In this document: positions 1-12,274 of the stretch, piece by piece
Layout of the letters: every line of letters starts with the position of its first letter
Numbering within the stretch: position 1 is the stretch's first letter
Origin: Lentimicrobium sp.
GTDB taxonomy: Bacteria; Bacteroidota; Bacteroidia; Bacteroidales; Lentimicrobiaceae
Length of the DNA: 40,137 nt
Direction of reading: 5' to 3'
Assembly (NCBI GenBank): GCA_019429275.1
Contig: JAHYJC010000041.1
Coordinates: 1 to 40,137 of the forward strand
Translations under genes and position numbers: made by a program
Notes under the pieces: generated by a model
What the model was told of the DNA's origin: nothing
Database searches by the model: none
The model's input: only the letters and a program-made list of their open reading frames with translations

Positions 1-127
1 AGGTCGTTTATGCGGATACCGAAAATTTCAGCGCTGCTTGACCTTTGGCGGCTTTTGATCCCCATGCTGGGCGGAATTCGTAATTCCGTCCACAGCCTCT
101 GCTCCCGCGCGATTGCATCGCGTGGTA
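1..127. repeat. 127-bp direct repeat, copy 1 (at contig edge)
   Basis: Identical by eye to 547-673. The unit contains the block ACCGAAAATTTCAGCGCTGC, a palindrome CGGAATT-CGT-AATTCCG (about 71-88), and ends with the CGCGAT-TGC-ATCGCG palindrome. After position 127 the copies diverge, and this copy lacks the second hairpin of the module. The contig begins exactly inside the repeat, which explains why assembly stopped here. Confidence 0.9.
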
Positions 128-152
128 TGGTTACTAAAAATACGATGATTGA

Positions 153-345
153 AAATCAAGCCCCAGCGGGGCATTTGGGACGGGGAGAAAAGGAGACAAG
201 CCTGCCAGCCGTAGCAAAGTGGAGGCTGGGAGACAAGGGGAAAGTAGATATATAGTTCACGAAAAAAAATCAAGCCCCAGCGGGGCGAAATGTTGGTAGC
301 CACAAAGAATGCGACAGAACATCAAGCCCCGGCGGGGCGCAGGGT
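153..345. repeat. GCCCC-AGC-GGGGC mini-palindromes (three copies)
   Basis: The phrase ATCAAGCCCCAGCGGGGC occurs near 155-172 and 269-286, with a variant having GGC in the loop near 323-340. Each forms a 5-bp GC stem with a 3-nt loop and has AT-rich flanks. They resemble dispersed extragenic palindromes. No coding potential is convincing here; the overlapping short open frames on both strands have repeat-derived sequence. Confidence 0.6.
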
Positions 346-546
346 GAATAGTAATAAAAAATACCCGTAACTACCTCCTTCGGCCATGGCTTGAATCGCT
401 TGAATCATATTCTCTGTCGTTCAGGCCACTAGGCCTCGTATCCGCAACACGACTGCCTAAAATCTGGCCTAATGTTATAATGGCTTCGTTTAAAATCAAT
501 TGTTATTTCGGTTTTTAAACATTACCTTCCGGAGGCCGATTTTAGA
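346..546. other. Non-coding stretch between repeats
   Basis: I see no credible gene. The stretch contains a small palindrome AGGCC-ACTA-GGCCT near 425-438 and then AT-rich sequence leading into the second 127-bp repeat. It has no tRNA-like or terminator-like structure that I can support. Confidence 0.5.
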
Positions 547-673
547 AGGTCGTTTATGCGGATACCGAAAATTTCAGCGCTGCTTGACCTTTGGCGGCTT
601 TTGATCCCCATGCTGGGCGGAATTCGTAATTCCGTCCACAGCCTCTGCTCCCGCGCGATTGCATCGCGTGGTA
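547..673. repeat. 127-bp direct repeat, copy 2
   Basis: Perfect copy of 1-127 (offset 546), running from AGGTCGTTTATGCGGATACC to the end of the CGCGAT-TGC-ATCGCG hairpin. In this copy the element continues into the second hairpin of the module. Confidence 0.9.
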
Positions 674-715
674 AATAATAATTACACCACACGATACAAT
701 CGTGCGGCAGCGGGG
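647..715. repeat. Double-hairpin module, short-spacer form
   Basis: First palindrome CGCGAT-TGC-ATCGCG, spacer TAAATAATAATTACAC, second palindrome CACGAT-ACA-ATCGTG, then GCGGCAGCGGGG. The outer arms (CCGCGCGATTGCATCGCGTGG-like and its diverged inverse) can also pair over about 21 bp, with G-U pairs or A-C mismatches depending on the strand. Confidence 0.85.
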
Positions 716-841
716 CATTTGAGACGGGGAGACAAGGGGATAGATTGTGGTGGTTTGAAAGAGGAATTGAGTACGAACATTTTGTGATTATTGGGTAGCT
801 GTTCTATAAAAAAATAAACGACAGAACATTAAGCCTGTCGC

Positions 842-943
842 TGGGCGGAATTCGCAATTCCGTCAACAGCCTCTGCTCCCGCGCGATTGCATCGCGTGGT
901 AAATAATAATCACGCCACACGATACAATAGCGCGGTAGCGGGG
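842..943. repeat. Palindrome CGGAATT-CGC-AATTCCG plus double-hairpin module
   Basis: A GGAATT/AATTCC palindrome (about 845-861) precedes a module at 875-943. The second arm is altered here (CGATACAATAGCGCGG), which weakens the second hairpin. This copy lies 33 bp past the 3' end of the ATPase gene, so it could sit in that gene's transcript end. Confidence 0.8.
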
Positions 944-975
944 GAAAACACCCTACGTGGTCGCAATTCCGTCTT

Positions 976-2094
976 TCAGGTAATTTTCACGAAATCACGA
1001 AAGTTTTCTTTGTTGATCAGACTGATCTGAGCCTGATAGGTTTTGATGAATTTTTGAGGTGATGCTGATTTTCTGCTCTTCCACTTGAACTCATATCCAG
1101 CTATCTGTCCATTGCTTTCTTCAACAAAATCAATCTCTTGCTGTTGAGTCGTCCTCCAGAAATACATTTTGGAAAATGTGTCCTTATAGAGATTTTGTTT
1201 CCTTCTTTCGGAAACCAGAAAATTCTCCCAGAGTGCTCCTTTGTCAACTCTTAAATCAAGCGGATTGAAATTTCCAATAATCATATTTCTTATTCCGTTA
1301 TCATAAAAGTATATTTTACGGTTTTGTTTTATTTCGTTTCTCAGATTCCTGCTAAAGCTGTTAAGTTTGAAAATAATGTAGCCTTTTTCCAGAATCTCAA
1401 TATACTTTTGAACGGTAAGCTTATTGATTCCGACTATCTTCGACAATTCGTTGTAGTTGACTTCGCTGCCCATCTGAAGGGCCAGGGCCTGTAAAAGTTT
1501 TTCAAGCACTTCCGGTCTTCTGATGTCTGAAAATGCCAGAAGGTCTCTGTAAAGGTAACTGTTGACCAGGTTTTTTAATGTCTCCTTTTCTTTCCCCTGA
1601 TTGTTGATCACTTCAGGATAGAAGCCATACAACAATCGGTTGTCTAACTGTTGAACTGATTTTACATAACCCATCTTATCTTCATATTCTTCCCATGAGA
1701 CCGGAAACAGTTCATACTCCCATTTTCTGCCTGTCAGGGGTTCATTCAGCACATTGCCCAAATCGAAAGATGATGAACCGCTGACGAAAAGTTGAACATT
1801 TTTAAATTGATCGGTGATAATTTTAAGTGTTAAACCGATTCCGGGTATTCTCTGCGCCTCGTCTATAAAAACTATTTTATGGTCTGCCAGTATGGTTCGT
1901 ATTTCTTCGGTATTCGGATTTGCCAGAATTGTCCGGATTGTGGGATCGTCAGCATCCAGAAACAAAAACTCAAGACCATCCAAAATATGATTAATCAGCG
2001 TTGTTTTCCCAACCTGTCGGGCTCCTGTCAGGACAATGGCCTTTCCGCTGCCGATTTTTTCCTGAATTCTTTTTTCTAAGAATCTGGCAAACAT
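976..2094 (-). CDS. AAA-family ATPase with DUF4143 C-terminal domain
   Basis: Predicted cytosolic ATP-binding protein of 372 residues from the ATG at 2094; a TTG 15 bp further upstream would add five residues. The sequence shows a Walker A motif (GARQVGKTT, about residues 24-32), a Walker B motif (IVFIDEA, about 74-80), a winged-helix-like middle and a C-terminal QQEIDFVEE...GYEFKW segment typical of DUF4143 proteins, whose C-terminus resembles a nuclease fold. The family is common and usually variable between strains; its physiological role is not established, and toxin-antitoxin-like or defence roles are only suggestions. The gene is alone and flanked on both sides by double-hairpin repeats, so it looks like accessory cargo. 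Its promoter is unusually clear (2107-2138) and places the transcription start only a few bases before the ATG. Confident about the family, not about the function. Confidence 0.88.
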   Translation of the reverse strand: MFARFLEKRIQEKIGSGKAIVLTGARQVGKTTLINHILDGLEFLFLDADDPTIRTILANPNTEEIRTILADHKIVFIDEAQRIPGIGLTLKIITDQFKNVQLFVSGSSSFDLGNVLNEPLTGRKWEYELFPVSWEEYEDKMGYVKSVQQLDNRLLYGFYPEVINNQGKEKETLKNLVNSYLYRDLLAFSDIRRPEVLEKLLQALALQMGSEVNYNELSKIVGINKLTVQKYIEILEKGYIIFKLNSFSRNLRNEIKQNRKIYFYDNGIRNMIIGNFNPLDLRVDKGALWENFLVSERRKQNLYKDTFSKMYFWRTTQQQEIDFVEESNGQIAGYEFKWKSRKSASPQKFIKTYQAQISLINKENFRDFVKIT

Positions 2095-2106
2095 TGTTTT
2101 TTCTTT

Positions 2107-2138
2107 CAAAGATACAGATTAATATTATAATGACCAAA
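2107..2138 (-). promoter_or_regulatory. Bacteroidetes-type promoter of the ATPase gene
   Basis: On the minus strand a -33 TTTG (2135-2138) is followed after 20 bp by a -7 TATCTTTG (2107-2114), matching the Bacteroidetes primary sigma consensus TTTG-N19/20-TANNTTTG. The expected start of transcription falls about 6 nt before the ATG at 2094, so the mRNA would be nearly leaderless. Confidence 0.7.
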
Positions 2139-2175
2139 TATACTAATTAAAAGTCATTATGATATCTTTTGGTTG

Positions 2176-2657
2176 TTATTTTGGTGGCTGATTTGAGGAT
2201 TTGAGGATTAGCGAAGAGAGGGTTCAAAGATTCCCCAGCGGAAAAGTGAGACTGCCCGCCTGGCCCAGGCCGCTTAATCGGATACCGAAAATTTCATCGC
2301 TGCCTGGCTGGGGATGGGTTATGAATAGTCTATAGTCTATAGTCGCTGCTCCCGCGCGATTGCATCGCGTGGTAAATAATAATGATGCCACACGATACAA
2401 TCGTGCGGCAGCGGGGTTATTTTGGTGGCTGATTTGAGGATTTGAGGATTAGCGAAGAGAGGATTCAAAGATTCCCCAGCGGAAAAGTGAGACTGCTCGC
2501 CTGGCCCAGGCCGCTTATGCGGATACCGAAAATTTCAGCGCTGCCTGGCTGGGGATGGGTTATGAATAGTCTATAGTCTATAGTCGCTGCTCCCGCGCGA
2601 TTGCATCGCGTGGTAAATAATAATGATGCCACACGATACAATCGTGCGGCAGCGGGG
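2176..2657. repeat. 241-bp tandem duplication ending in double-hairpin modules
   Basis: Two head-to-tail copies, 2176-2416 and 2417-2657, differ at only a few positions (GGG/GGA near the start, CCCGC/CTCGC, TTAATCGG/TTATGCGG, CATCGC/CAGCGC). Each contains the ACCGAAAATTTCA block shared with the 127-bp repeat, a TATAGTC micro-repeat, and a terminal module (2348-2416 and 2589-2657). Confidence 0.9.
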
Positions 2658-2853
2658 GCTTAAAAGAACTTTGTGCTCCCTGACTGTTGTCTGGCAGACT
2701 TTGTGTCATTGTGGCAAAAAAAAAGAACCGTTTTCCGGTCCTTCTTTGATTTATTTGATATAGTCCATTTGACAAATGCTATTGGCTGTCTGTAAGCAAA
2801 GCGTTGTTCTTAATCGGTTGTGGGGCAAATAGCCCATACGTTTCGGCGGTTTA

Positions 2854-2954
2854 GTCGAGCGGTGGTCGAGCGGAGTCGAGCGGAGTCGAGCGGTGGTCGA
2901 GCGGAGTCGAGCGGTGGTCGAGCGGAGTCGAGCGGTGGTCGAGCGGAGTCGAGA
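2854..2954. repeat. 21-bp tandem repeat, GTCGAGCGGTG/GTCGAGCGGA
   Basis: Alternating 11- and 10-bp blocks GTCGAGCGGTG and GTCGAGCGGA run for about 100 bp. The array ends with GAGACCACCC. It is far more GC-rich than its surroundings. An open frame through it would encode VVERSRA repeats, which I regard as non-coding. Confidence 0.85.
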
Positions 2955-3073
2955 CCACCCGCGTTCAAACCAATTTCAGTCTTTAGGCATTAGAAACTGC
3001 TTGTCTCGTGAGCTATTATTCATTCCTCATTATTCCTCGTCATCGCCCACTCTGACGAGGCAGGCATTATTCA
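2955..3073. other. Non-coding segment with a hairpin downstream of the small secreted protein
   Basis: CCTCGTCA (3035-3042) and TGACGAGG (3053-3060) form an 8-bp perfect stem with a 10-nt loop. It lies 14 bp beyond the stop of the minus-strand gene ending at 3074. No T-tract follows on the minus strand, so its use as a terminator is uncertain. Confidence 0.4.
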
Positions 3074-3310
3074 CTATTCACTAATTCTGGCATCGTAGGC
3101 TTTCTTCCCCGCATACGCAGCACCCATTACCAGCAGAATGGCCATGCCACTGCCAATAGGGGCGGTACCGCCACTCTGTGGCTGGTTTCCGTCCAGTGCG
3201 TGGCCACCGGGAGGAGGTGGTGGTGGACCCTGGGCAAACAATTGCGCCGAAGAAAGGAAAAGCAGTGCCGAGAGTAAAAAGACAGGTAAGAGTTTCACGA
3301 ATTTTTTCAT
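3074..3310 (-). CDS. Small secreted protein with proline run and glycine-rich C-terminal membrane tail (PID-CTERM-like)
   Basis: 78 residues: a signal peptide (about 1-26, cleavage after LFA or FAQ), a GPPPPPPGG run (28-36), a short linker, then APIGSG (50-55), a hydrophobic segment (56-67) and a basic end (KKAYDAR). The tripartite C-terminus (short motif, membrane segment, positive charges) matches the plan of protein-sorting tails, and the PI-x-x-G start resembles what I recall of the Bacteroidetes PID-CTERM type, with S in place of the usual D/G. No sorting enzyme gene is in the window. The gene follows the giant T9SS protein by 29 bp on the same strand and is probably co-transcribed with it, suggesting a surface partner. 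The sequence is very short, so the family assignment is tentative, although the signal peptide and tail are plain. Confidence 0.65.
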   Translation of the reverse strand: MKKFVKLLPVFLLSALLFLSSAQLFAQGPPPPPPGGHALDGNQPQSGGTAPIGSGMAILLVMGAAYAGKKAYDARISE

Positions 3311-3339
3311 TATGCTTATTTTATATTTTCTAAATTCAA

Positions 3340-6300
3340 TTATAACACCACTTTACGGCTTACCGATTGTCCTTCGCTGAGTACCGTAACCACATATATG
3401 CCTTTGGGCAGATTGCCGGCATTGATGGTGGTGAGGCTGCTGCCTTTCGAAAGGCTGCGCTGTAACACCTGACCCAGCAGGTTGGTTACCCTAATGTCGG
3501 CTTTGGCCGCTATGCCACTGAGGTAGATTACCCCATTGTGTGCATAAATATCAACCTGACTTTCAGCAACCGGCGTTTCTATGCCAATGGTTCCGGCAAA
3601 AGTAAGTTTAAATCTTGACATATCATCGTTTGGTCCGCCCGAAAATGTATACTGGCCGGTTTCCTTCAGGTTGATTTTGCTTCCGGTTTTAATATCGGTG
3701 AGATATACCTGATTGGCAAGCCTGAAGTCAGAGATATTTGTGGCTGTAAGGGTATAATTTGACTGAACCCCGCATTTTGCACTGAGGTCAATTGCCATTT
3801 CAGCTGAAATTTCAGGATAACGATCGATGGAATAATTATTTCCGTCTTTGACCGAGAAAATTTCAGGGGCTTCGGTGTACATGCTCCAGAATTTGTCGCT
3901 GCCGCCATTGCCCTGCGATGGGTCGAAGGATAGAATCATTTCATCGCTGAAGGTATTGGCTTCAGTGGTCAGTTTCAAACGCAGCAGGTCGGTTTCGGCA
4001 GGGCTGTTTTTAAGCCAGGGCTGAGTGCTGTGCGTTCTTACATCGTTGGTCATGGTGAGGCTTCCGACTGAGGCGACCTTCACAAAAAATGCCTGCATGG
4101 GTGCGATGTCCTTGCTCACCTCATTGATGCCTGAAACACTGGCAGAATTGAACACGCCATAATTTCCGCCTGCATCATTCCAAACCCAGTAATCGTATCC
4201 TGTTCCGCTTGTAGCAAGATTTGAGCGGCCCCAGCCTGTACCTGCAGTCCAGTCAATGGAAGAAGGATAGGGATTTCCCACAAGGTTATAGATATTGTCT
4301 GCGTTGTAAGCGATGGCCCTTTCAACGGTTCCTGTGTTTAATGAACCGGAGAAGGTATGGGTGGTGCTTCCATTATAATCCGGGCCATAGGCTACGAGGT
4401 AACCACGTCCTTTTTCCATTACCGGAGGGGTGGTGGTTCCGTAACCGGCAGCAATACTGGGATCATCAACCGTCGAATTGTTGTAATTGGCAACTGCATC
4501 TTTGCGCAGATTTACCCAGTAGAAATAGGACTCAACCGGCACATTGGGATTGTAGTAATAAAAATCCCAGTTCCACAACGGAGCTGTTTGCGCAGCCGGC
4601 CATTTTAAATCAGCCGGTTCAGGTGCAAACTCAGGCCAGATCGCCTGACTTGCCACCGGCGATGACAGGAAATGCCATTTCCAATCGTTGGCGATTTCGC
4701 GCTCCACGGTGGCTGTTCCGTTTACAGTTAAATGACTGTTATCCATCAAGGATGCGCCTGATCTGATTGTAATGTTGTTGCAGGCCCCGGCACTGTATAG
4801 CGTCGGGAAATTTGTCACCACAGGTATATCTACATTGATGCATGAAGATGGGACAAATTCTGGTGTCCAGTTGGCAGCCGTGTGCCAGTCGTCGCTTTCG
4901 CTGCCATTCCAGGTGAAGGTTTGGTCAGCAGTAAGTATTGTGACGGTAGCCGTGCTGCCGGCAAAACCGATGGTGCGTGGGCAATGGGTGCCGGTAACCG
5001 AAACCAGGGTATAGGTTTTGATTTCTGATACTGTGCCTACACTGAAAGGAGTTCCTGAAACCACATTATTAACAGTATGGTCAGTTCCATCGTTGTAAAC
5101 CACCGTAAACGGCCCTGTTCCAGCAGATGCAGTAAAAGTAAGCCATCCTTCCTCACCTGAGCAAATGGCATTGCCTGTAAGTGAACCCTGGGGCAGTGCA
5201 AAAATGGTAACTGTAAACGGATACTCAACACTTTCGCAGGTGGTGGTGCTGTTTTTTACATAGAGGGTTCCGTTGTAAGTTCCGGGGGTGGATGGTATTG
5301 TCAATACAACAGGACTTTCCGGTAAAGTAGTGTAAGTTATATCTTCAAAACCTGCCGTTTCAGCAGCGGCATCATAATCAATCCGGTACTGATCGGGGCT
5401 GCCGGTTGTTGCTGTATAAGGCAGACTTGCCGAGGTGCTTCCTTCGCAAACCGCAGGAAAATCGCCCAGGGTAATGGTTGGAAGAGGATTAACGGTCAAA
5501 ACCACAGCATTAGATGTAACACCGCTGCCGCAGTCGCGGTTGACCACTACGCGGTAAGCGAAGTTGTTCATCGAAAGCGGCGGGTTGGTGAGTGTGAGTG
5601 TGGCACTGGTGGCATTTGAATAAACCCCATCATTGCTAATTGCAACGAAAGTTCCGCCGGTCCCGGTGATGCTTTCCTCCCATTGATAGGATGGAGTGCC
5701 ACTGCTTACTGTAGCGGTAACACTGAAAGTTGCGGTTCCGTTCGCATCGCAGGTAGCGGTTGCCGAAGGATGTGCAGTGATTGTCGGTGGCAGACATTCG
5801 GTGGCTACAGCAAAATTACCAAAAGCAGTCAATCCTGTTGATTTAAAAAAATTCGGATCGATAAAGTTTGCATCTAAGGCCGTGTTGGCGGTGCCATCGC
5901 CTTTCAGAATTTTGGGTGAACCACTGCCGGGTATAAACGGAGTGCCATCGAGGGTTAAATCATAGGTAAAGCTACTTCCACCCGTTTCAGTAATTGCCCA
6001 GTGACGATTAGTCTGATAGGTAGTATTTACCGGAAAAGTACCCGGAATCACCGTTTCAAACTGCTCGGCGGTAACCGTACTTGTGCCTGTTAATGCAGTA
6101 TAATTTACGGTTAGCGGGCGGTAATTTCCACCTTTACCTATCGGAAAATCTTTTGATCCGACTGCGCAATAGACCCGGGCCAGTTTGCCGTCGATGTAGC
6201 TTGAGGCACTCTGTCCGGTGATATCGCCATCACAACCATGAGTCAGTATGTTGTCTCCAGTTGTAATCAGTCCGCTGGTAAGGGTTAAATTGCCGTTTAC

Positions 6301-9297
6301 CGTTTGGCTGTTGCCGAGAATAACACCGGCTGCATTGTTCAGTGTCAGGTTGGTGAAAATGGTGGATTGTGTGCCTCCTATGGTTTGAAGAGATGTACCG
6401 TCGAGGTTTACCGTTCCCAGAGTAAAAGTAGCGGTTGAGTTTTTGGTAAAATCGCCACCAATGCTGAGAGTATTGGAAGTGCCTGAAACCACTGCCGTTC
6501 CATCAAGTTTAAAGTTATGACTAACTGCAAGCGTGGAGGGCAGAGTCTTGGTGTTGGATCCGCTTAAAGTTAGGTTGTAATAGTTGCCATCGCCGTCGGG
6601 TGTGATAACCGTTTGATTATCACCATTATATTCTATCGTATTGGGGTAAATATCGGCATAAAATTTACCTGTTCCGGTTCGGGTTATGGATTCTGTCAGT
6701 CTTAAATTTGTACCGGATTGAACGGTTAAATCAGCACCATCAGCAATTACAATTGAAAATAATCTTGGTATTCCGGAAATGGTTGCCCCGGGGCTATCAA
6801 AATAAATCGGATTTGTACCGGGACTGGATAATCCTGAGAGGTCTTCATACCCTCCGCTCAAGCTGTTAACAATGTGCATCTTTTTGTTATCGAAATTTAT
6901 GATTCCCCCAGACAAAATGGTAAGGGTGTTAACATAAGTTTCATCAGAAGGGGTTGGATCATTAGTTGTAGTTGCAGCATCGGGTATGATAACATGGTCT
7001 CCTATTCCAGGTACACCTGAAGGAGTCCAATTCGCTTCAGCATCCCAACTTGTACTTACAGACCCATTCCATACTTTATAAGTTTCCTGGTACGCCCTCA
7101 TGGTAAAAATGGTTCTCCAGGCATGGGTTTCGGAAACAAAAATAAAATAGTCGATCGGGATATTTGACATTCCCACAAAATTATTTACCTGATCATGCCC
7201 AGTATTTCCGTGTTCATCGGGGGTGGTCATGCCACCTCCGATGTCACCATCCGAGGTAACCAGTTTGGCTTCATCTTCGCCGTTGAGTTCCGAATCGAGG
7301 TAACGGAAATTTGCACTCACGTGACAACCGCTGCCATCAGTGCATACGATTTCATACATCCTCTTTATGCTTTTATTATCAGGAGACGAGGTGTACATGG
7401 TTTCAAACGGAGATGCCCCTATTTTTACTGTAACCGAAACGTTAGTGGGCAATGTCCCTTCGCTGGTAAAGGCTATGGTTGTGAACTGGTTCCCGAAAGA
7501 ATAAGCCGTGTTGGCATCTATTGTATTACGTTTAATAATCCCGGTTACATCACCTGTGCCGGTTGTTGTGGCGGTGGCTCCCATAAAAAGCGTCCAGGAA
7601 TCCATATTGTTGTATCCAGGGTTTGTATAGGTAGTTCCCGGGTAATCGCTGTAATCGGTCACCATTTCAAGCAAACCCACAGTGGCTGATGGGTTGGGAT
7701 TATCCGGAGTGGATGAAGCCAGGTTTAGTATTCCATTAACAGTAATATTGCTTCCCGCTTTTACTCCGCCAATTGTACCTGTCTGATTGATAGTCAAATT
7801 ATTGAAAGTATTGCTTCCGGAGCCTCCGATAGTTTGCTGAACGCCTGAACCCACAAAACTTACAGTGCCTGTATTGGGTGTAAACGTTCCGTTGTTCGTC
7901 CAGTTGCCAAAAACACTTAAGGCATTTGAGCCGTCTATGGTGAGGGTTGCGCCTGAATTGATGGTTATGTCTTTACACATTCCACCGACAGTTCCAATAT
8001 TGGGTTGAAACAGTACGTTTGGCGAATCGATTGGTGGTATGATAACATTAGTTGATGTTGTAGGAACTCCTCCGCACCAGTTGCCAGATACATTCCAGTC
8101 GTTGTCTACCTGTCCTGTCCATATATTTGTATTTTGGTCGGTTTGCCAAACCCGCAGTGTTACATTCTGGGTAAATGACTCTGTACAGTTGGTTGGTGAA
8201 CTGGTAATGGTAATTCCTGTTATCAGTAAGGTCTGCTCGTTATTGGCGGTTGTCAGGGTTGAGGTTGTGAAACTTGAGTTTCCTGATTCATCTGCAATCA
8301 ATTCGGGTATTGCAGTTTGTGCCACACCGTTTATTGAATAATTCACCATAAAAGTGGTATTGGGCACCAAACCGGTTAAATTGATGGTTGCCGGCGTATT
8401 TTCACAAACGGTCATAACTTGCGACGCTGCAGTAAGGGTTGGCAAAGCGTTCACTACAATGGAAATTGTTTCGGCGTTGGTATAGGTCGTCCCCCCCAGA
8501 AGGGTGGTAACAGTTAGTCTTGCCTGATATGTGCCGGTAACGGCTGATGCAATGGAAACATTTTGAGTGTCATAGGTCGTAACACCACCGCCCGGTGCTG
8601 TTACACTCCAGCTGTAAGTGGGTGCACTACCAAAGGCGCCATCATAACTCCCAGAAAGGTCTAATGTAATGCCCTCACAAATCGGTCCGTTGGATGTGGG
8701 CAAAGCGTCCAGCGTTCCACCGGCTGCAATCAGCTGAGCGAAAGTAAAAATATCTCCGGGAGCACCGGCACACACTGCATACTTCTGCGTACCTATCCAC
8801 AATTCAGCATTGTTGTTGCAGGTTGATGCTACAAGGCCGTTAAGGTCTATAGTCATACTAACGGCCGCATCGGCAGAGAGTACAAGTTTAGATTTATTGA
8901 AAAAGTATACATCCCCACCTGATTCTATATTAAGTACCGAAGTCGCCAGAGAAAAAGTTACTGTCTGGTTAGTACCGTTAAGATACAGCCTTCCGGTGCT
9001 TTCAATATTAATTGAAGCGAAAGGCTGGGTGTCAATTCCACCTGTTCCAATTGTCACTACATGCCCTAAAACTATAGTCACTGCTCCGGTACCGGTATAT
9101 TGTCCCGGCCATCCTTGCGCTGTGGTAGGGGTTGACCAGGCTGTGCCGCTGTAACGCTGCCAGGTGGAAAGGGTTGTCCAGGTTCCGGTTGTAACAGAGC
9201 GGTAATCACCGGCGGTTTGGGCCCATCCGGATAAACCGGTCAGCATGATAAAAACAAATGCAAATAAAAGGGTTTTGATCTTTGAAACAAACTTCAT
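3340..9297 (-). CDS. Very large T9SS-exported, cell-surface adhesin-like protein
   Basis: About 1985 residues from the ATG at 9297; an in-frame start 81 bp upstream exists, but the residues MKFVSKIKTLLFAFVFIMLT form a normal signal peptide ending at GWAQ, so the inner start is chosen. The mature part is a chain of beta-rich repeats. Several blocks have the pattern W...W-x-NWTP...-V-x-IP...-TI-x-SGA-x-L followed by GTV-x-F-x-G-x-x-QTIGG-x-x-x-T-x-FNNLT. Ig-like or PKD-like segments include one with PSYQWEES, and the final third includes SYFYWVNLR and GNPYPSSIDW, typical of Bacteroidetes surface proteins. The last 75 residues form a type A T9SS sorting domain (LLGQVLQ, LPKGIYVV, KVVL). It is expected to cross the outer membrane by T9SS and be anchored to the surface. 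The binding partner is unknown. Base composition resembles the other Bacteroidetes genes here. Confidence 0.9.
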   Translation of the reverse strand: MKFVSKIKTLLFAFVFIMLTGLSGWAQTAGDYRSVTTGTWTTLSTWQRYSGTAWSTPTTAQGWPGQYTGTGAVTIVLGHVVTIGTGGIDTQPFASINIESTGRLYLNGTNQTVTFSLATSVLNIESGGDVYFFNKSKLVLSADAAVSMTIDLNGLVASTCNNNAELWIGTQKYAVCAGAPGDIFTFAQLIAAGGTLDALPTSNGPICEGITLDLSGSYDGAFGSAPTYSWSVTAPGGGVTTYDTQNVSIASAVTGTYQARLTVTTLLGGTTYTNAETISIVVNALPTLTAASQVMTVCENTPATINLTGLVPNTTFMVNYSINGVAQTAIPELIADESGNSSFTTSTLTTANNEQTLLITGITITSSPTNCTESFTQNVTLRVWQTDQNTNIWTGQVDNDWNVSGNWCGGVPTTSTNVIIPPIDSPNVLFQPNIGTVGGMCKDITINSGATLTIDGSNALSVFGNWTNNGTFTPNTGTVSFVGSGVQQTIGGSGSNTFNNLTINQTGTIGGVKAGSNITVNGILNLASSTPDNPNPSATVGLLEMVTDYSDYPGTTYTNPGYNNMDSWTLFMGATATTTGTGDVTGIIKRNTIDANTAYSFGNQFTTIAFTSEGTLPTNVSVTVKIGASPFETMYTSSPDNKSIKRMYEIVCTDGSGCHVSANFRYLDSELNGEDEAKLVTSDGDIGGGMTTPDEHGNTGHDQVNNFVGMSNIPIDYFIFVSETHAWRTIFTMRAYQETYKVWNGSVSTSWDAEANWTPSGVPGIGDHVIIPDAATTTNDPTPSDETYVNTLTILSGGIINFDNKKMHIVNSLSGGYEDLSGLSSPGTNPIYFDSPGATISGIPRLFSIVIADGADLTVQSGTNLRLTESITRTGTGKFYADIYPNTIEYNGDNQTVITPDGDGNYYNLTLSGSNTKTLPSTLAVSHNFKLDGTAVVSGTSNTLSIGGDFTKNSTATFTLGTVNLDGTSLQTIGGTQSTIFTNLTLNNAAGVILGNSQTVNGNLTLTSGLITTGDNILTHGCDGDITGQSASSYIDGKLARVYCAVGSKDFPIGKGGNYRPLTVNYTALTGTSTVTAEQFETVIPGTFPVNTTYQTNRHWAITETGGSSFTYDLTLDGTPFIPGSGSPKILKGDGTANTALDANFIDPNFFKSTGLTAFGNFAVATECLPPTITAHPSATATCDANGTATFSVTATVSSGTPSYQWEESITGTGGTFVAISNDGVYSNATSATLTLTNPPLSMNNFAYRVVVNRDCGSGVTSNAVVLTVNPLPTITLGDFPAVCEGSTSASLPYTATTGSPDQYRIDYDAAAETAGFEDITYTTLPESPVVLTIPSTPGTYNGTLYVKNSTTTCESVEYPFTVTIFALPQGSLTGNAICSGEEGWLTFTASAGTGPFTVVYNDGTDHTVNNVVSGTPFSVGTVSEIKTYTLVSVTGTHCPRTIGFAGSTATVTILTADQTFTWNGSESDDWHTAANWTPEFVPSSCINVDIPVVTNFPTLYSAGACNNITIRSGASLMDNSHLTVNGTATVEREIANDWKWHFLSSPVASQAIWPEFAPEPADLKWPAAQTAPLWNWDFYYYNPNVPVESYFYWVNLRKDAVANYNNSTVDDPSIAAGYGTTTPPVMEKGRGYLVAYGPDYNGSTTHTFSGSLNTGTVERAIAYNADNIYNLVGNPYPSSIDWTAGTGWGRSNLATSGTGYDYWVWNDAGGNYGVFNSASVSGINEVSKDIAPMQAFFVKVASVGSLTMTNDVRTHSTQPWLKNSPAETDLLRLKLTTEANTFSDEMILSFDPSQGNGGSDKFWSMYTEAPEIFSVKDGNNYSIDRYPEISAEMAIDLSAKCGVQSNYTLTATNISDFRLANQVYLTDIKTGSKINLKETGQYTFSGGPNDDMSRFKLTFAGTIGIETPVAESQVDIYAHNGVIYLSGIAAKADIRVTNLLGQVLQRSLSKGSSLTTINAGNLPKGIYVVTVLSEGQSVSRKVVL

Positions 9298-9670
9298 AAT
9301 ATCAGTGTGTTGATGGTGTAAACTTGCTTTTTTTTCTGAAGAAAATGTTGCCTCAGTTGGCCGATGGTTAAAAATCATTTTATAAGGATAAAACTGTGAT
9401 TAAGATGATTCATAAAGTAATCCGAAAACGGTTGAAAGGTAATCAGTCCATTTTCAGTTTTCACAACTTTTCCGGTTCCGCTTACGTCATGAAGTGAATA
9501 AAAAAATTATTTCTAAACTACTTATTTATCTGAAATCCAATGTTATATTATATGTAATGATTGAACAAACAGACTGACAAAGATAGATATTTATATCTTA
9601 TATTTTTTGATGTATAAAAAAATGTTAAAATAAAATGATGAATGCAATACGCAGGGAATGTTTCATTAGT
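9298..9670. other. AT-rich leader region upstream of the giant T9SS gene
   Basis: No gene is visible. On the minus strand a TATCTTTG -7 box lies at 9578-9585, without a clear -33 box. If used, it gives the T9SS gene a 5' untranslated leader of roughly 270 nt. Most of the rest is AT-rich without strong structure. Confidence 0.4.
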
Positions 9671-9813
9671 CGCTTATCTCGTAAGACTGCGGTAGCAGGA
9701 TGACGAGAATAGTTGATAGTCGATAGTCTATGCTCCCGCGCGATTGCATCGCGTGGTAAATAATAATTACCGTTAAATTAATTGATGCCACACGATACAA
9801 TCGTGCGGCAGCG
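9671..9813. repeat. Outlying unit of the 136-bp repeat family
   Basis: Contains the array linker (GACTGCGGTAGCAGGATGAC) followed by a long-spacer double-hairpin module at 9732-9813. It is separated from the regular array by a 144-bp interruption, since its distance to the next module is 280 bp, which equals 136 + 144. Confidence 0.85.
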
Positions 9814-9973
9814 ATGCCGGGCGGCAATTATAATTCCGACCTTATTTGAACCAGGCACATTGCTGATTAACATTGGAATGATACACCAGAAATATAACAA
9901 CTGTAATACGAATCCTGAATTGCAAATTCAGGGGTATAGAAAGCGGAATTGCAAATTCCGCTTAGCGGGGGGA
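9814..9973. repeat. Hairpin-rich interruption of the array
   Basis: Replaces the middle of one linker. It holds CCTGAATT-GCA-AATTCAGG (about 9914-9932) and GCGGAATT-GCA-AATTCCGC (about 9943-9961), two perfect 8-bp palindromes with the same GCA loop, plus a related GGCAATTATAATTCC. The remaining sequence shows no convincing gene. Confidence 0.75.
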
Positions 9974-10852
9974 GCAAGATGACGGGAATAGTTGATAGTC
10001 GATAAGTCTATGCTCCCGCGCGATTGCATCGCTTGGTAAATAATAATTACCGTTAAATTAATTGATGCCTCACGATACAATCGTGCGGCAGCGATGGTAA
10101 GACTGCGGTAGCAGGATGACGGGAATAGTTGATAGTCGATAGTCTATGCTCCCGCGCGATTGCATCGCGTGGTAAATAATAATTACCGTTAAATTAATTG
10201 ATGCCTCACGATACAATCGTGCGGCAGCGATGGTAAGAGTGCGATAGCAAGATGACGGGAATAGTTGATAGTCGATAGTCCATGCTCCCGTGCGATAGCA
10301 TCGCGTGGTAAATAATAATTACCGTTAAATTAATTGATGCCACTCGATACAATCGCGCGGCAGCGATGGTAAGACTGCGGTAGCAGGATGACGGGAATAG
10401 TTGATAGTCGATAGTCCATGCTCCCGCGCGATTGCATCGCGTGGTAAATAATAATTACCGTTAAATTAATTGATGCCAAACGATACAATCGTGCGGCAGC
10501 GATGGTAAGACTGCGGTAGCAGGATGACGGGAATAGTCGCTTGTCTCGTAAGACTGCGGTAGCAGGATGACGGGAATAGTCGATAGTCGATAGTCTATGC
10601 TCCCGCGCGATTGCATCGCGTGGTAAATAATAATTACCGTTAAATTAATTGATGCCACACGATACAATCGTGCGGCAGCGATGGTAAGACTGAGGTAGCA
10701 GGATGACGGGAATAGTTGATAGTCGATAGTCCATGCTCCCGCGCGATTGCATCGCGTGGTAAATAATAATTACCGTTAAATTAATTGATGCCACACGATA
10801 CAATCGTGCGGCAGCGATGGTAAGACTGCGGTAGCAGGATGACGGGAATAGT
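9974..10852. repeat. 136-bp tandem array of long-spacer double-hairpin modules
   Basis: Modules start at 10012, 10148, 10284, 10420, 10599 and 10735. Spacing is exactly 136 bp except for one 179-bp step, caused by a 43-bp duplication of linker sequence (CGCTTGTCTCGTAAGACTGC region). Each unit is an 82-bp module (CGCGAT/ATCGCG hairpin, spacer with TTACCGTTAAATTAATTG, CACGAT/ATCGTG hairpin, GCGGCAGCG) plus a 54-bp linker with GATAGTC micro-repeats. Units differ by a few substitutions; the one at 10284 has GTGCGATAGCATCGCG and ACTCGATACAATCGCG. No open frame is conserved through the array. Confidence 0.92.
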
Positions 10853-10914
10853 AGATCCCTAACATGAAAGATAATTATTTCTGAAACCTATGGGTGATTC
10901 TGAACTAAATTTTA

Positions 10915-10966: not shown

Positions 10967-12274
10967 ATGAGTAAATTTATCGGAATCAGGCACGAAGACA
11001 AATATGTAATGGAAAGGCGCGCTCCCCTCACCCCGCGCCATGTTGAACGTTTAATCAAAGGTAAAAAACTGGATATTGTGGTGCAAACTTCGGCCAAACG
11101 GGTTTTCACCGACCAGGAATACATCAATGCCGGAGCGCGTATTGCAGAGAACCTGGGTGAATGCTCGGTTATTCTTGGCGTTAAAGAGATGCCAAACTCA
11201 TTTTTTGAGCCGGGCAAAACCTATGTGTTTTTCTCGCATGTTATCAAGGGGCAGGCCTACAATATGCCTATGCTCAAACGCATGATGGAACTGGGCTGCA
11301 ACCTGATTGACTATGAAAAAATTGTGGACGAACAGGGCAAAAGGCTGATTTTTTTCGGTCGCTATGCCGGACTTGCCGGAATGATCAACTCATTGTGGTC
11401 GCTTGGCCTGAGGCTGAAAGAATATGGTTATGAAACTCCTTTCCTGAAGATTACACAGGCTCATCATTATGCTTCACTTGAAGAAGCCCGGAAAGTAATA
11501 TCGGAAGTTGGCCAGGAAATTGCTGAAAAGGGGCTTCCGAAGGCGCTAAGACCTTTCACGGTAGGCTTTACCGGTTATGGTAATGTTTCGCAGGGCGCAC
11601 AGGAAATTCTCGGATTACTTCCGGTTAAAGAAATTTCGCCTGAAAAACTGCTTGAACTCAAAGAGAGAAAGCATGCACCCAATAACCTGATTTACAAGAT
11701 CATTTTTAAAGAGGAGCACCTTTCGACCCAAAACGAAGGACGAGCATTTGACCTTCACGATTATTATGCGCATCCCGAAAATTATCACGGTATTTTCGAA
11801 AAATACATTCCACACCTTTCGGTGCTGATGAATTGCATGTACTGGGATACACGCTATCCAAGAATCGTAACCAAAGATTATCTGGAAAAAGCATTTGCTG
11901 AAGGCCAGCCAAAAATGCTGGTAATCGGCGATGTTACCTGCGATCCTGACGGAAGCATTGAAATCACCCACAAAGGAACCGAAATCGAAGATCCCATTTT
12001 TGTTTACAATCCGTTTACCCGAAAGCCGTCCATGGGCCACAAAGGCGAAGGCATGCTGGTGATGGCAGTTGACATTCTGCCCAGCGAACTGCCACGCGAT
12101 TCGAGCAATGGTTTTGCTGATGCACTGGTAAATTTCGTCAAACCCGTTGCCGACTGCGATTTTAGTGAGGAGTTTGAAGACCTCGACCTGCCCAGAGCCA
12201 TTAAAAAAGCTCTGATACTGCACAACGGGGAGCTGACACACGATTTCAAATATATTGAGAATCACCTGAAATAG
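10967..12274 (+). CDS. Lysine 2-oxoglutarate reductase-like protein (alanine dehydrogenase/PNT fold)
   Basis: 435 residues. It resembles the N-terminal reductase half of the eukaryotic bifunctional aminoadipate-semialdehyde synthase and joins L-lysine and 2-oxoglutarate to saccharopine using a nicotinamide cofactor. The N-terminal substrate domain shows RAPLTPRHVERLI (about 17-29), the usual opening of the AlaDh/PNT family, and the middle contains VGFTGYGNVSQGAQEIL (Rossmann nucleotide site, glycine-rich). The ending HNGELTHDFKYIENHLK is typical of these standalone enzymes. The ATG at 10967 is preferred; the GTG two codons upstream is possible. The next gene, 72 bp downstream, is the matching saccharopine dehydrogenase, so the pair forms a two-step lysine catabolic route to aminoadipate semialdehyde and glutamate. 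Running the reaction in reverse is chemically possible, but the DapD in this window argues that lysine is made by the diaminopimelate route. Confidence 0.85.
   Translation: MSKFIGIRHEDKYVMERRAPLTPRHVERLIKGKKLDIVVQTSAKRVFTDQEYINAGARIAENLGECSVILGVKEMPNSFFEPGKTYVFFSHVIKGQAYNMPMLKRMMELGCNLIDYEKIVDEQGKRLIFFGRYAGLAGMINSLWSLGLRLKEYGYETPFLKITQAHHYASLEEARKVISEVGQEIAEKGLPKALRPFTVGFTGYGNVSQGAQEILGLLPVKEISPEKLLELKERKHAPNNLIYKIIFKEEHLSTQNEGRAFDLHDYYAHPENYHGIFEKYIPHLSVLMNCMYWDTRYPRIVTKDYLEKAFAEGQPKMLVIGDVTCDPDGSIEITHKGTEIEDPIFVYNPFTRKPSMGHKGEGMLVMAVDILPSELPRDSSNGFADALVNFVKPVADCDFSEEFEDLDLPRAIKKALILHNGELTHDFKYIENHLK

Follow-up and report, generated by a model that had tools for sequence, protein, structure and literature searches.

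REPINs of Pseudomonas fluorescens have been described as two inverted REPs with a spacer between them, which fold as one hairpin, stand in intergenic places and are linked to a RAYT, and some of them are repeated in tandem together with the DNA around them (Bertels and Rainey 2011, PMC3116915). The GTAG- and CGTC-tagged REP super-families consist of short palindromes, one end of which carries an unpaired tag (PMC3733652), and REPINs, tandem clusters, inverted dimers and heterodimers are all known forms (PMC3116915, PMC3733652). In Escherichia coli, TnpA-REP was reported to need the tag together with a bulge in the stem, its substrate being the single-stranded hairpin (PMC8266576). RAYT group 5, or TnpA-Y1 subclass 2.6, of the Bacteroidetes was described with "atypical" REPs without GT[AG]G, for which no sequence rule was seen in the main text (PMC6006769). 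In a further study, RAYT evolution is not addressed in the main model (PMC8049555).

The window analysed here, a stretch of 40,137 nucleotides, is contig C78 of a draft Lentimicrobium sp. assembly (4.19 Mb, 108 contigs, 96.46% complete). A hairpin, X (CGCGATTGCATCGCG), was found at 12 plus-strand sites in the window (10 exact, one with one mismatch and one with two), against a mean of 0.07 sites in the shuffled window; a 13th match of this search was Y read on the other strand and was left out of the X count. The second hairpin, Y (CACGATACAATCGTG), was found at 11 plus-strand sites (8 exact, one with one mismatch and two with two; mean of 0.11 in shuffles). An inverted Y followed X in 11 cases out of the 12, the exception being the first row of Table 1, and the numbers given in a preliminary description of this DNA (12 X, 11 with a following Y) therefore stood, far above chance. 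The spacer between the 25-nt units measured 15 nt in four pairs and 31 nt in seven. Three clusters were counted (101-939, 2348-2653 and 9732-10815), where two had been described, and the 136-bp tandem array proposed earlier was recovered by repeat search.

Table 1. Positions in the window of the X/Y modules and of the tandem repeats that contain them.
Feature	Position	Strand	Basis
Single X REP, no Y partner	101..125	+	motif search
X-Y REPIN, 15-nt spacer	647..711	+	motif search, pairing, fold
X-Y REPIN, 15-nt spacer, 2 mismatches in Y half	875..939	+	motif search, pairing
X-Y REPIN, 15-nt spacer	2348..2412	+	motif search, pairing, fold
X-Y REPIN, 15-nt spacer	2589..2653	+	motif search, pairing
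X-Y REPIN, 31-nt spacer	9732..9812	+	motif search, pairing, fold
X-Y REPIN, 31-nt spacer	10012..10092	+	motif search, pairing
X-Y REPIN, 31-nt spacer	10148..10228	+	motif search, pairing
X-Y REPIN, 31-nt spacer, changes in both halves	10284..10364	+	motif search, pairing
X-Y REPIN, 31-nt spacer	10420..10500	+	motif search, pairing
X-Y REPIN, 31-nt spacer	10599..10679	+	motif search, pairing
X-Y REPIN, 31-nt spacer	10735..10815	+	motif search, pairing
241-bp unit, two copies in tandem, each one REPIN plus flank	2175..2657		repeat search
136-bp-unit tandem array (one unit longer), each unit one REPIN plus flank	9973..10856		repeat search (several overlapping rows)

Four folds of three X-Y pairs, as single-stranded DNA, each gave one long hairpin (z from -4.4 to -6.1), in agreement with the earlier proposal that X and Y can fold together. 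In the one pair folded on both strands, the minus strand was more stable than the plus strand (-22.7 versus -19.8 kcal/mol). The stem is irregular in X and Y, where a G-T mismatch lies three pairs above its base, whereas the REP of E. coli has the tag GTAG and an AA-GC bulge (PMC8266576); both combine a tag with a stem irregularity, and a single-stranded hairpin would be the substrate of X/Y as well.

Other repeats and genes lie close to these modules. Palindromes of the form GGAATT-nnn-AATTCC were seen at 73-87, 619-633, 847-861 and 9945-9959; since they adjoin X/Y modules, two REP-like families share these intergenic places. They resemble the repeats around one of the RAYTs of the same genome (L007). 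A tandem array of a 21/31-bp unit, GTCGAGCGGAGTCGAGCGGTG, was present at 2853-2953, and similar letters were found upstream of a REPIN in L012. On the minus strand, an AAA_14/DUF4143 ATPase gene (976-2109) stands between two REPIN clusters, and a 2012-aa protein with a C-terminal Por_Secre_tail sorting domain, which is probably secreted, is encoded at 3340-9378.

Across the draft genome, the 25-nt unit (up to three mismatches) gave 52 hairpins on 7 contigs, against none for the reversed control. Twelve of these were X hairpins standing alone; the others formed 20 inverted pairs, namely 18 X-Y pairs and two in which the partner of X had decayed. The copies were thus neither confined to this contig nor present only in tandem, and the earlier REP/BIME reading was upheld by their spread and by the predominance of inverted pairs. 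The two spacer forms described for the window do not cover the whole genome, in which spacers measured between 15 and 43 nt; outside the window, lengths of 26, 31, 33, 41, 42 and 43 nt were seen. No ORF of at least 120 aa contained any of the 52 hairpins. With the REPIN of L013 and its flanks as query, 19 other places of the genome matched from at most 10 nt from the X end to at most 5 nt from the Y end, in a list that also held shorter single-X matches and a few matches of other repeats. Since the paired copies are bounded at the X and Y ends, the pair is the dispersed unit. At the foot of the hairpin, GCTC or GCTG was found in 37 of the 38 exact matches of the 25-nt pattern, and GTAG or CGTC in none.

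X and Y thus resemble the REPINs of P. fluorescens (PMC3116915) as inverted doublets with a spacer (20 pairs; 12 hairpins out of the 52 single) and a one-hairpin fold (three pairs folded), dispersed between genes, in tandem clusters with their flanks and, as described below, linked to a RAYT; however, they have other sequences, their halves differ and the search of the genome gave no cognate RAYT. With the GTAG and CGTC super-families they share the short palindromes, the inverted dimers and the heterodimers, but X and Y have neither tag at their foot (PMC3733652). The 15-nt core had no occurrence in the literature searched, and no title on an X/Y family was found. As far as that literature goes, the REPIN family is new by its sequence, as the preliminary description had held, and of a kind already known; the REPs of this RAYT class are described in general terms in PMC6006769, whose supplement may include that of X/Y.

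No X/Y copy (25-nt unit, up to three mismatches) was found in any of the 18 congeners examined. This, together with the draft state of an assembly of 108 contigs, could suggest that the X/Y-bearing contigs are contaminants. The gene to the right of the main array (10967-12271, with AlaDh_PNT_N and AlaDh_PNT_C domains) was nevertheless 81-91% identical in 11 of the 18 congeners (one match partial) and 61-77% identical in six, with no match in one; the contig of the window, to which this comparison is limited, therefore fits the genus. Tetranucleotide correlations of X-bearing with other stretches of the genome were 0.89-0.99, versus 0.86-0.88 for five outside loci, L013 (0.889) lying near the outside values. 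Moreover, contig C34 carries X copies as well as a RAYT of the genome with another repeat, and we regard contamination as highly improbable.

At L013, no congener matched across the insertion. Upstream of the 10967 gene, the orthologous intergenic place of the closest congener (L276, 2944-3261) held seven REPs with the same outer layout as X and Y and an arm GCGTC, of the type GCTCCCGC-GCGTC-CCNY-GACGC-GTGG. There was no match to this layout upstream of the gene in the other 16 loci (14 congeners and two of the same order), of which L284 had no upstream DNA and L277, L286 and L292 had little. Because one place was filled by another REP and these four loci offered little or no upstream DNA, no clean empty site was obtained. 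From the sequences compared, it seems that the REP family occupying this intergenic place differs between species.

To find the hairpin elsewhere, the pattern GCTSCCGCRCGATTGYATCGYG was searched in one genome per species for 84,980 species, and at least 117 stretches contained it. Among the matches listed, 116 of the 117 were named Bacteroidota, including 65 Bacteroidia and 40 Flavobacteriia, and one was a draft named Oleispira. Three IMG/VR viral contigs (L138-L140) had one copy of the REP pattern each and might be a vehicle of transfer. Of 151 exact copies from genomes other than the own one, 147 had a complementary pair at the variable arm position (AT 87, GC 60, AC 3 and GT 1, among the matches listed), which indicates that the hairpin itself is kept. 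Of 37 close neighbours in outside loci, 27 were inverted pairs, only two of them with identical halves (among the matches listed).

A Y1-like match was present in 38 loci of the 117 among the matches listed plus the three viral ones. A strong L006-like match was found in 23 loci (among the matches listed), and in 12 of them the hairpin pointed outward on both sides of the RAYT, with up to three mismatches. As these 23 loci had been picked by the hairpin, RAYTs were also picked by protein alone; at an E-value of 1e-40, this gave a RAYT in 48 of 395 phylum genomes and in 116 of 395 class genomes. The core CGATTGYATCG (at most one mismatch) stood at the flank of five of the six RAYTs that were at least 67% identical in the phylum set, and the sixth, L144, at a contig edge, had a CGAA arm. 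In L033, L045, L092, L099, L110 and L122 (several of them Chryseobacterium or Kaistella), the downstream core was CACGAAAGGATTCGTG and the upstream core mostly CACGATTGYATCGTG, i.e., two cores per RAYT.

Three proteins out of three scored above the cut-offs of NCBIfam REP_Tyr_transpos and of PF01797 (the Y1_Tnp fold family), and all three reached 23-28 bits with the IS200/IS605 model NF033573, against a cut-off of 55. Eight rows flanked by RCGA hairpins had an NHVH, NHIH or NHMH HuH motif, a Y motif YIHNNP, YIHQNP, YVHNNP or YIHENP (not all fitting YIH[QN]NP exactly) and an invariant W followed by R. They resemble group 5/subclass 2.6 (PMC6006769) in belonging mostly to Bacteroidetes (116 of the 117 hairpin contigs, among the matches listed), in NHVH and a YIHNNP-like motif, in a length of about 180 aa, and in being flanked by hairpins without GT[AG]G that have copies elsewhere in the genome; they differ in having WR where that paper gives WQ. 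By this motif resemblance, the cognate RAYTs may be assigned to group 5/subclass 2.6.

A quick tree, drawn with a midpoint root, was built from 124 RAYTs (107 picked by protein and 17 by hairpin), leaving out 19 short matches, 11 with stops and one identical row. All 29 RAYTs with an RCGAN-arm hairpin formed a single clade (SH-aLRT 98) that contained none of the remaining rows. Thirteen of these rows had been picked by protein alone; the other 16 had been picked by hairpin, so that their agreement with it is circular. The next larger group (SH-aLRT 95) added five rows, including a RAYT of the own genome on contig C23 (L147); their arms were GGATT three times, GAATC once and none once.

This match between hairpin core and RAYT clade bears on whether the hairpins might be host RNA or DNA elements, such as terminators, mRNA stabilisers or protein-binding sites, which selection maintains and recombination multiplies, the RAYT link in other genomes being a side effect. 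All copies do lie between genes and fold well, and the tandem arrays would fit multiplication by recombination. Such elements are, however, hardly to be expected in view of the absence of copies from all 18 congeners, the dispersal as a bounded unit and a core that follows one RAYT clade; in addition, no Rfam family reached its gathering score in the window at 1-10900 (six weak matches, up to E 1). We consider this explanation improbable. We conclude, with a probability of about 0.88, that the X/Y modules are REPINs and that one Bacteroidota RAYT clade is flanked by their REP, which would also be its recognition unit.

From this anatomy and the clade match, X/Y would be mobilised by a RAYT as follows. 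The REPIN, two inverted REP hairpins around a short spacer, would be the non-autonomous form, and [REP]-RAYT-[inverted REP], seen in other genomes, the gene-bearing form. A RAYT-type Y1/HuH transposase would act on REPIN DNA while it is single-stranded and folded, and cutting and joining would be the work of RAYTs of the RCGA clade. The family would have spread in this way to intergenic places on at least 7 contigs of the genome, and some insertions would later have multiplied in tandem with their flanks.

The genome of the window has seven Y1_Tnp genes, all of them outside the window, for which the preliminary description had likewise stated that it has no RAYT gene. By eye, six of the seven stood among palindromic repeats of their own, unlike X/Y, and no clear palindromic repeats were seen around the seventh (L003); X/Y was not seen to flank any of them. 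Two Y1 genes, L001 1471-1920 (contig C6) and L002 1474-1938 (C34), lie among repeated palindromes and have the Y motifs YITNQEEHH and YIKNQEEHH, which are like those of subclass 1.2, a subclass with the entry 'no' for REPs in the table of PMC6006769. The cognate RAYT L113, used as query against the own genome (E up to 1), matched four genes, the best of which was 63% identical. A cognate RAYT was therefore not found in this draft (96% complete, 108 contigs), a provisional absence since draft assembly readily drops a gene that occurs once and is bordered by near-identical repeats. The RAYT link suggested at the outset is accordingly borne out by other genomes, in which the hairpin flanks the RAYTs of one clade, but not by any cognate in the own draft.

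The best match is the C23 gene (L006/L147), whose REP has the same outer layout as X and Y. The REPINs might thus be moved in trans by this sister RAYT, which is present, belongs to the group next to the RCGA clade and is 63% identical to the query, rather than by a lost cognate. Its REP differs in the arm (GGATT) and was counted only 14 times with up to three mismatches, versus 52 X/Y hairpins, and arm and clade agree without exception for RCGAN in the tree; movement in trans is therefore rather unlikely, though less so than host elements or contamination. The reading of X/Y as REPINs of the RCGA clade would instead imply that the RAYT was lost or is absent from the draft, and that the family arrived in the species by transfer.

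A near-exact REP pattern, searched in the class sample of 395 genomes, was found in 11, with 49 copies in the own genome and 1 to 4 in each of the ten others, numbers that are lower bounds for these ten because the strict pattern misses copies with other arms. Some outside loci reached up to six matches in 8 kb (L075; among the matches listed). Six of the ten other genomes had an RCGA-clade RAYT (G030, G461, G505, G529, G584 and G615; the RAYT of G529 is the L101/L216 sequence). The most copy-rich genome of the class sample is therefore one that shows no RAYT for its copies.

X, Y and many other RAYT-flanking hairpins share the layout S-CGC-n5-loop(3-4)-n5'-GTG. This rule was framed on 50 loci already inspected and then applied unchanged to 64 new loci (one of which, L216, repeats L101), so that only the latter are a fresh test. 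In the framing set, the layout was found at the flank of 25 RAYTs out of the 50: 6 of 6 from 65% identity upwards, 11 of 16 at 50-65% and 8 of 28 below, against 8 in the wrong orientation and 1 of 1040 in shuffled sets; two further RAYTs of the own genome did not have it (0 of 2). In the fresh set, it was found in 10 of 10 at 65% or more, then in 9 of 32 and 2 of 22 (11 of the 54 more distant RAYTs), against 4 in the wrong orientation, 5 in a more distant stretch in either orientation and 0 of 1280 shuffles. The rule is thus firm for the close clade, whose RAYTs had been picked by protein in both sets, and patchy beyond it. CTN or TTN preceded the layout in 32 of 40 matches of the framing set and 31 of 35 of the fresh set.

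One might tentatively go further and suppose that the tagged REPs read by group 5-like Bacteroidota RAYTs are a third class, whose address has two parts: a shared outer part (YTN-S-CG ... TG-S, with the G-T mismatch) and an inner part, made up of the 5-bp arm and the loop, which varies by clade. The species of the window would then hold a large one-address population with no reader, since the family came without its RAYT or a sister RAYT moves it in trans. This extension is clearly less probable than the assignment of X/Y to one RAYT clade, and we offer it as a possibility.

The REPs of Bacteroidota RAYTs have so far been described only as atypical, at least in the main text of PMC6006769. A sequence rule, together with a clean match between hairpin core and enzyme clade in genomes of Bacteroidia and Flavobacteriia, provides ready substrates and enzymes for tests of recognition. 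A REPIN population that lacks its cognate RAYT and has no copies in any of the 18 congeners examined would be a natural case for studying how such a family arises and persists once the transposase is gone.
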